The translations under genes were made by a program, and so were the position numbers. DNA of 64,000 nt from Chloroflexota bacterium (GTDB lineage Bacteria; Chloroflexota; Anaerolineae; Anaerolineales; Villigracilaceae). This document shows, in pieces, positions 3,569 to 53,046 of this stretch (positions are counted from its first letter, which is position 1; every line of letters starts with the position of its first letter). The notes under the pieces are model-generated. The model worked only from the letters and a program-made list of their open reading frames with translations, did no database searches and was not told the DNA's origin. The stretch lies in the NCBI GenBank assembly GCA_016234485.1, contig JACRBL010000036.1:147799-211798 (forward strand), given 5' to 3'.

Positions 3569-3611
3569 GTCGCATAGTTTGATGGTCTGATAGTCTCATA
3601 GTCCATCCGTC
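3569..3611. repeat. 8-bp tandem array O1 (GTCNNATA)
   Basis: GTCGCATA|GTTTGATG|GTCTGATA|GTCTCATA|GTCCATCC|GTC, phase runs into palindromic repeat A. Confidence 0.88.
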
Positions 3612-3697
3612 ATTGCGAGGATGATCTTCCCGAAGCAATCTCCTCTCGCGGCGCGGGGATTGCTTCGTCGGGAAGAGCGCCCTCCTCGCAATGACGG
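3607..3697. repeat. CGTCATTGCGAG palindromic repeat, copy A
   Basis: CCGTCATTGCGAGG...GAAGCAATCTCC...GGGGATTGCTTC...CCTCGCAATGACGG. Confidence 0.92.
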
Positions 3698-14980: not shown

Positions 14981-15098
14981 CCCGTCATTGCGAGGAGGGC
15001 GCTCTTCCCGACGAAGCAATCTCCTGATCGTGCGCGGGGATTGCTCCCTGGCGCCGCCCGCCAGGGCAGGTGTCGCAGCAAACGCTCGCAATGACGGG
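14981..15098. repeat. CGTCATTGCGAG palindromic repeat, copy B (with inserted GC hairpin module)
   Basis: Same termini; 28-bp insert CCCTGGCGCCGCCCGCCAGGGCAGGTGT at 15046-15073. Confidence 0.92.
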
Positions 15099-18855: not shown

Positions 18856-18945
18856 CCGTCATTGCGAGGAGGGCGTTTTTCCCGACGAAGCAATCTCCTC
18901 AACGTGGTAAGGGATTGCTTCGGGAAAATCACCCTCGCAATGACG
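18856..18945. repeat. CGTCATTGCGAG palindromic repeat, copy C
   Basis: CCGTCATTGCGAGGAGGGCG...GAAGCAATCTCC...GGGATTGCTTC...CCTCGCAATGACG. Confidence 0.92.
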
Positions 18946-19893: not shown

Positions 19894-20040
19894 TTCAGTA
19901 AATCACAGATTCCTCGTCATTGCGAGGAGGGTGATCTTCCCGACGAAGCAATCTCCGCGCCGTGGGAGGGGATTGCTTCGCAAAAAGCGCTCGCAATGAC
20001 GGGCTGTCAGTGGTGTTTGAATCAAACCGTGATTTACTGA
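19894..20040. repeat. CGTCATTGCGAG palindromic repeat, copy D, with outer TCAGTAAATCAC/GTGATTTACTGA inverted repeat
   Basis: Core 19915-20003 plus outer arms TCAGTAAATCAC and GTGATTTACTGA (perfect 12-bp inverted repeat). Confidence 0.9.
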
Positions 20041-32504: not shown

Positions 32505-32537
32505 AAGCCCCTGAAGGCTCATCACCCTCAGGGGCTT
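32505..32537. terminator. Hairpin between convergent genes (possible bidirectional terminator)
   Basis: AAGCCCCTGA ... TCAGGGGCTT perfect 10-bp stem. Confidence 0.6.
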
Positions 32538-32538
32538 C

Positions 32539-32598
32539 AATTACCAATTACCAATCTCCAATTACCGATCTTCAGACTATCCGACCACCCAACTACCT
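32539..32598. repeat. 7-bp array (AATTACC) passing into 8-bp array O4 (GACTATCC)
   Basis: AATTACC|AATTACC|AATCTCC|AATTACC then GATCTTCA|GACTATCC|GACCACCC|AACTACCT. Confidence 0.87.
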
Positions 32599-33426
32599 CC
32601 ACGCCTTCTTCATCCGCAGCGCGTCCTCTTCCATCACGGGGCTTTCGCACAAAATCCGCCCACCGCAACCGAACTTCTTCAAGGCCTTGAACAGGTCTTT
32701 CCATTTCAGATCGGCCTCTTCGAGCGGCAAGTGATTCTTCTCGCCCTTCGGCCCATACTCGATGCCCGAAAGGTGGATGTGCAGACTCGTCAACGCCTGC
32801 GCTCCCAGCGCCTCGGCATAGGCCTCCAGCAGGCGCGACCACTCGTCCACGCTGTTGACGGTCCCGTCACCGGGGCGCGCGTGCAAATGCGCGAAATCCA
32901 AACACGGCTGAACTCCCGCCACCTGCCGCGACATCTCCAGCGCGTCATCGAACGAGCCCAGCATGGCCGACTTGCCCATCGTCTCCGGGCGGAGCGTGAC
33001 CGGGTTCCCAGCCTTCCGCAACTCGACGACGCACTTTTCCAAACGGGGCAACGCCACTTTCATGACCTCGCGCGGGGCGCGGCCAAAATAGGATCCCGGG
33101 TGGAAAATGATATCCGTCGCCCCCGCCAGGTGGCCGTACTTGGCCGCGTCCATGAGACGTTTGCGCGACTTGGGCCACTCGTCCTTCTCGGCGTTTAAGT
33201 TGATGTAATACGGCGCGTGGACGCTGAGCGCGACTCCCTGCTCGCTGGCGGTCTTCTTGATCGCCGCGCAGGTCTCCTCGCTGACACGCACCGCCTGCAC
33301 CCAGCCCAACTCCAGCGCGTCCAGCCCGATGGATTTGCTAAACTCAATCGCGCCGACCGATCCGCCCGGCTTCTTGGGCGTTCCCATCGGCGAACCGACC
33401 GTCCCGAATTTAAACGATAAAGTCAT
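32593..33426 (-). CDS. TIM-barrel protein, endonuclease IV/xylose isomerase-like
   Basis: GTPKKPGGSVGAIEFSKSIGLDALELGWVQ, SVHAPYYINLNAE, DIIFHPGSYFG, CLDFAHLHAR, LHIHLSGIEYG metal-site His motifs. Confidence 0.82.
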   Translation of the reverse strand: MTLSFKFGTVGSPMGTPKKPGGSVGAIEFSKSIGLDALELGWVQAVRVSEETCAAIKKTASEQGVALSVHAPYYINLNAEKDEWPKSRKRLMDAAKYGHLAGATDIIFHPGSYFGRAPREVMKVALPRLEKCVVELRKAGNPVTLRPETMGKSAMLGSFDDALEMSRQVAGVQPCLDFAHLHARPGDGTVNSVDEWSRLLEAYAEALGAQALTSLHIHLSGIEYGPKGEKNHLPLEEADLKWKDLFKALKKFGCGGRILCESPVMEEDALRMKKAWR

Positions 33427-33441
33427 GGTTACTCCTATCAG

Positions 33442-47626: not shown

Positions 47627-47731
47627 GTAAATCACAGGTTCCTCGTCATTGCGAGGAGGGTGATCTTCCCGACGAAGCAATCTCCACGCCGTGGGAGGGG
47701 ATTGCTTCGCAAAGAGCGCTCGCAATGACGG
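47627..47731. repeat. CGTCATTGCGAG palindromic repeat, copy F, with left outer arm TCAGTAAATCACAG
   Basis: Nearly identical to copy D including the left arm; right outer arm missing. Confidence 0.92.
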
Positions 47732-52962: not shown

Positions 52963-53046
52963 CGTCATTGCGAGCGTTCGTTGCGAAGCAATCCCCTCGT
53001 CGTGGGGGATTGCTTCGTCGGAAAGAACATCCTCCTCGCAATGACG
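52963..53046. repeat. CGTCATTGCGAG palindromic repeat, copy G
   Basis: CGTCATTGCGAGCGTTCGTTGCGAAGCAATCCCC...GGGGGATTGCTTCG...CCTCGCAATGACG. Confidence 0.9.

Follow-up and report, generated by a model that had tools for sequence, protein, structure and literature searches.

Degenerate tandem repeats with G-rich heptameric units have been described in Xanthomonas (GGGAATC) and Nostoc (GGGGAYT) (Rehm et al. 2015, PMC4692102). According to the portions of that report available to us, these repeats share several properties with the arrays analysed here: they form degenerate 7-nt arrays between aligned genes, with few between divergent genes, they are often located near or over stop codons, and the same gaps carry an array of another length in a relative. 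The Xanthomonas heptamers also occur as convergent pairs, as in the octamer hairpins described below. Unlike the arrays reported here, however, they constitute a single G-rich family that is rare in coding sequence, and those portions contain no octamer class. The class I and class II repeats of the P6b element in the Nostoc trnL intron are likewise built of 7-nt units, and the whole motif has been replaced at one site in independent lineages, but they lie within the stem of a group I intron and their period is constant at 7 (PMC4476775).

The TAACTGA repeats of Beggiatoaceae, Cyanobacteria and Bacteroidetes, which carry stop codons in all frames, resemble the present arrays in being intergenic heptamer arrays that are patchy among taxa, but they consist of one motif and are positioned mostly directly upstream of start codons (PMC4679880). 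In the same phylum as our genome, the (GATAGRA)n satellites of Chloroflexus aurantiacus are heptamers scattered genome-wide; they form one family, and octamers or mixed arrays were not found in the available part of that source (PMC6749651). A polymerase contact length has been proposed as the basis of the 7-nt preference in bacterial short repeats (cited in PMC4679880 and PMC4692102). The open-access papers searched describe neither an octamer class nor orthologous sites at which the period changes. Natural before-and-after pairs for testing the polymerase-contact idea are offered by a clade that has 7- and 8-nt units side by side and seemingly interconverting at orthologous sites.

Results and Discussion

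Structure of the mixed array

The array lies in a stretch of 64,000 nucleotides (the window) of a 4.46-Mb Anaerolineales (Chloroflexota) MAG, labelled G000, whose closest named relatives in our search were the MAGs SURF_68 and UBA7227. Its parts and neighbours, all on the minus strand, are as follows:

32593..33426, minus strand: TIM-barrel gene (xylose isomerase-like, AP_endonuc_2), 277 aa, gene call with Pfam PF01261 (E 1.6e-32)
32572..32595, minus strand: octamer part, three units TAGTTGGG TGGTCGGA TAGTCTGA of the family TRGTYNNN, with octamer orthologs in G001 and G005
32537..32571, minus strand: heptamer part, five units AGATCGG TAATTGG AGATTGG TAATTGG TAATTGA, from TRF and the lag-7 score
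32505..32537, minus strand: terminator-like stem-loop adjoining the array, 14 bp stem, fold of -26.5 kcal/mol, with a similar stem in G001 and G005

On the gene strand the order is TAG(stop)TTGGG TGGTCGGA TAGTCTGA, then AGATCGG TAATTGG AGATTGG TAATTGG TAATTG(A), and then the stem. Read in phase on the plus strand, the heptamers are tCAATTA (32537), CCAATTA (32544), CCAATCT (32551), CCAATTA (32558) and CCGATCT (32565), and the octamers are TCAGACTA (32572), TCCGACCA (32580) and CCCAACTA (32588-32595), so that the unit length switches at 32571/32572, between five heptamers and three octamers. The array is single-armed and lacks the two convergent, folding arms of a paired (hairpin) element.

A first-pass annotation had given the sequence and coordinates correctly and had described four copies of AATTACC running directly into four octamers. 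Three of those copies are exact and one is AATCTCC, with two changes; the supposed fourth octamer, GATCTTCA, falls outside the octamer family and is AGATCGG plus one base. The unit length does change as proposed, but the cut into four plus four was one unit off. The TIM-barrel stop TAG (32593-32595, minus strand) lies inside the array, at the outer end of the last octamer, as had been noted.

Abundance of period-7 and period-8 arrays

Arrays were counted in 864 kb of G000, made up of 800 kb of stretches plus the 64-kb window. This sample contained 92 period-7 and 23 period-8 arrays, compared with 1 and 0, respectively, in third-order Markov sequence; periods 4, 5, 10 and 11 yielded just 0-4 arrays, and periods that are multiples of three were also found, chiefly in coding sequence. 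The window itself holds 11 period-7 and 6 period-8 arrays, and shuffled sequence holds none. The heptamer part of the present array scored 14.0 at lag 7; 464 kb of sequence contained 57 period-7 arrays scoring at least 12, and Markov-3 sequence contained none. Judged on lag-8 identity alone, the octamer part is weak. Its family, TRGTYNNN with at least three units, is represented by 26 arrays in the 864 kb, with none in Markov sequence and none in called genes, and the three-unit pattern has 287 overlapping matches genome-wide, as against 12 for the backward pattern.

About half of the period-7 arrays are in called genes, which is more than in Xanthomonas. Intergenic arrays are concentrated in co-directional gaps (68 of 74, where such gaps make up 61% of intergenic bases; p = 3e-9). 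The excess of tandem 7-nt units over chance (92 versus 1) and the location mostly between aligned genes are as in the degenerate bacterial heptanucleotide repeats (long simple sequence repeats); the single period of 7 is not shared, as units of 7 and 8 nt are combined here and in further arrays.

Probable change of repeat length at the orthologous gap

In G001, the nearest relative (93% protein identity), the orthologous gap reads TAGTTGGG TGGTTGGA CGGTTACG TGGTTACG TAGTTGGG TAGT, followed by a stem, and in the more distant genus-mate G005 (83% protein identity) it reads TGA tgt TAGTTGAG TGGTTTGG TAGTTGGG TAGTTTGA TGGTCGAA, again followed by a stem. Both gaps are purely octamer, and no clear array was present at the orthologous gap of G007 or G002. 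The G005 gene retains the usual C-terminus, with the array beginning after the stop; in the window and in G001 the stop is the TAG of the array itself, and most orthologs are longer than these proteins by several residues. Because the gap is all-octamer in both G001 and G005, the heptamers probably arose within an octamer array in the lineage of the window. The comparison suggests that the octamers are older here if G005 split before G001, a branching order taken from protein identity and not from a tree. It also suggests an unusual event, namely an in-place change of the repeat length. Alignment of the window array with its G001 ortholog is ambiguous, with 480 equal alignments.

Across the species compared, each represented by one assembled genome, turnover of units was also seen at other fixed sites:

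L130:285-2813, with orthologs L177-L188: PriA genes with period-7 arrays within the reading frame at four linkers, the units differing between genera
33441..33472, minus strand: heptamer array with GTTNAAC units that covers the kinase stop in the kinase-to-TIM gap

PriA arrays were present in 9 of 12 genomes and clustered at four common linkers, where the units are unrelated and the lengths differ; those of the first linker are CGATATT, CCGTCCC, CGAATTA, GGACGGT and ACAGTGA. At the kinase-to-TIM gap, the GTTNAAC units of the window correspond to CTGATNA units in G007, and G001 has no array there. At PriA linkers and operon gaps, the same sites carry a different array in relatives, as is characteristic of degenerate heptanucleotide repeats. 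Neighbouring heptamer units resemble each other more than distant ones do, with an identity of 0.78 at a unit lag of 1 and 0.65 at a lag of 4. Together with the turnover, this likeness of neighbours points to a mutational process that would act where it is tolerated. Such rapid overwriting of gaps and protein linkers advises caution in reading the arrays or the encoded peptides as conserved functional motifs. The idea that exact unit families are common to genera was rejected, as just 17% of other-genus arrays belong to the top 15 families of G000.

We consider it reasonably probable that the window array is a fast-evolving degenerate short tandem repeat located between the TIM-barrel stop and the terminator-like stem, in which the octamers are older and the heptamers arose by slippage or template switching. 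The terminator side of an older octamer array would have been rewritten to heptamers in the window lineage, with replication slippage or local template switching adding or removing units in a preferred step of 7 and, less often, 8 nt. A small change in a unit could set a new step that later expands; going from TAGTTGGG to TAATTGG, for example, takes one deletion and one substitution. Arrays would persist where they do little harm, namely in operon gaps, gene ends and protein linkers. The position of the stop codon would reflect extension of the array into the final codons of the gene, the TAG being part of the octamer unit. Slippage-like mutation at tolerated sites fits the known degenerate heptanucleotide repeats of Nostoc, Xanthomonas and Chloroflexus. 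An array ending in a stop codon is nothing special, and a stop-codon device was rejected: of the 68 arrays between co-directional genes, 25 overlap the stop codon of the upstream gene, compared with 18 expected from random placement.

Mixed arrays and the distribution of unit families

Adjacent 7/8 pairs numbered six in all sequence examined. The G000 sample had 3-4 mixed pairs, compared with 0.3-0.45 expected under random relocation, a null model that takes no account of arrays clustering in general. A search of 41 genomes for CAATTAC arrays lying no more than 30 nt from two octamer units detected six loci, and 0 in backward controls; one search of G000 for CAATTAC adjoining octamers returned nothing beyond the window's own array. 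The octamer count exceeded the backward control in 12 of the 13 genomes with CAATTAC arrays, although related genomes are not independent. Among the mixed loci, L199 (G023) fills the interval between one gene's stop and the start codon of the following gene and reads AATTACC x3, AACTATC, AGACTATC, AGACCATC, AGACTC, ATG. Another, L201 (G006), follows a gene unrelated to the TIM-barrel gene and shows the order of the window array, with a stop TAG, octamers, heptamers of TAATTGG and a stem.

The first-pass annotation had suggested looking for other mixed-period junctions, which these six pairs and six loci (0 backward) provide, and asking whether the switch always falls at a shared word, which they do not support. 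The mean cyclic edit distance between junction units was 2.3, compared with 4.0 for random pairs, a figure from six junctions that is biased by overlapping calls. Most of a word is common to both units at some junctions, and some, such as L199, pass through bridging units, but the window's own junction shows ordinary similarity (cyclic edit distance of 3). The further proposal that one process makes both classes is supported in part, by the recurrent mixed arrays and by the in-place octamer-to-heptamer change indicated by orthologs.

A possible but unlikely alternative is that two dispersed families are involved, a CAATTAC heptamer and a TRGTYNNN octamer, both of which spread in trans across the genome by conversion or copying before meeting side by side in this gap. 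Unit families do burst in single lineages: overlapping matches of three-unit GTTNAAC number 55 in G000 and 4 in G001, while five further genus-mates have 1-3 each and the genus-mate G003 has none, and CAATTAC has 85 matches in G023. The octamer, moreover, is abundant in some Anaerolineales families and absent from others as well as from G003, and the octamer-heptamer-terminator order recurs at L201. Slippage at each site alone does not predict such one-lineage bursts or the patchy distribution of the octamer. Dispersal is opposed, however, by the octamers at orthologous sites where the window carries heptamers, by the bridging units at some junctions (L199), and by our having seen no conserved element ends or flanks. 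We also regard as rather doubtful a sequence-copying process of the Anaerolineales that would spread particular 7- or 8-nt units in trans to tolerated sites, with the active units being lineage-specific and the sites repeatedly overwritten, even with a new period.

Several other candidates were rejected. Loss of mismatch repair was discarded, as MutS is present in 39 of 41 genomes, including array-rich ones, and reverse-transcriptase templating was discarded, as RVT_1 does not track the arrays (G003 has RVT_1 without arrays, and G010 has arrays without RVT_1). The octamer had appeared to be confined to the genus, based on 661 kb from other genera, but proved to be present in several Anaerolineales families when whole genomes were searched. 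G003, which is of the same genus (L096, L181), has no octamer matches, CAATTAC or GTTNAAC arrays, or PriA arrays, and provides a natural contrast for tracing the cause of the process.

Octamer hairpins and other elements in the window

The window contains a sister array with two arms:

36606..36700, minus strand: octamer array with two convergent arms (hairpin) that fills the gap between yqeY and HD, the yqeY stop being the TAG of the first unit

The yqeY stop (36698-36700) belongs to a unit of the same type as the TIM-barrel stop, TAGTTGGT, in agreement with the first-pass annotation, and the array has the convergent, folding arms of a paired hairpin. Six elements with two octamer arms lying close together were examined, five of them from G000 and one from G002; in every case the arms converge, and the elements fold strongly. 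This arrangement, the near confinement of arrays to gaps between co-directional genes, and the similar roles proposed for TAACTGA repeats (PMC4679880) argue for a selected RNA element, in which the array or octamer hairpin would influence mRNA stability, termination or the translation of the following gene. We nevertheless judge this improbable: hairpin function for the arrays generally was rejected because their fold z-scores are near those of the intergenic control, units are overwritten between relatives, arrays are present within PriA too, G001, G004 and G005 have a short yqeY gap that lacks an array, and the window array has one arm. That a true heptamer array simply adjoins sequence resembling octamers is extremely improbable, for despite the weak lag-8 identity and the misassigned fourth octamer, octamer arrays occupy the orthologous place in G001 and G005, TRGTYNNN arrays are absent from Markov sequence, and octamer matches in G000 far exceed the backward count (287 versus 12).

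Two further elements were observed. A heptamer hairpin, AAACGTA...TACGTTT, is located in the YbeY-to-kinase gap (33832-33919) and is retained in G001. A dispersed palindromic element, about 75-115 bp long and carrying the ends CGTCATTGCGAG, gave 16 end matches, compared with 0.67 expected, and its copies in the window are:

3608-3696: palindromic element copy
14983-15096: palindromic element copy
18857-18945: palindromic element copy
19915-20001: palindromic element copy
34378-34490: palindromic element copy
47644-47730: palindromic element copy
52963-53046: palindromic element copy

The copy at 19915 stands at the position that corresponds to the second octamer arm of the G002 ortholog.
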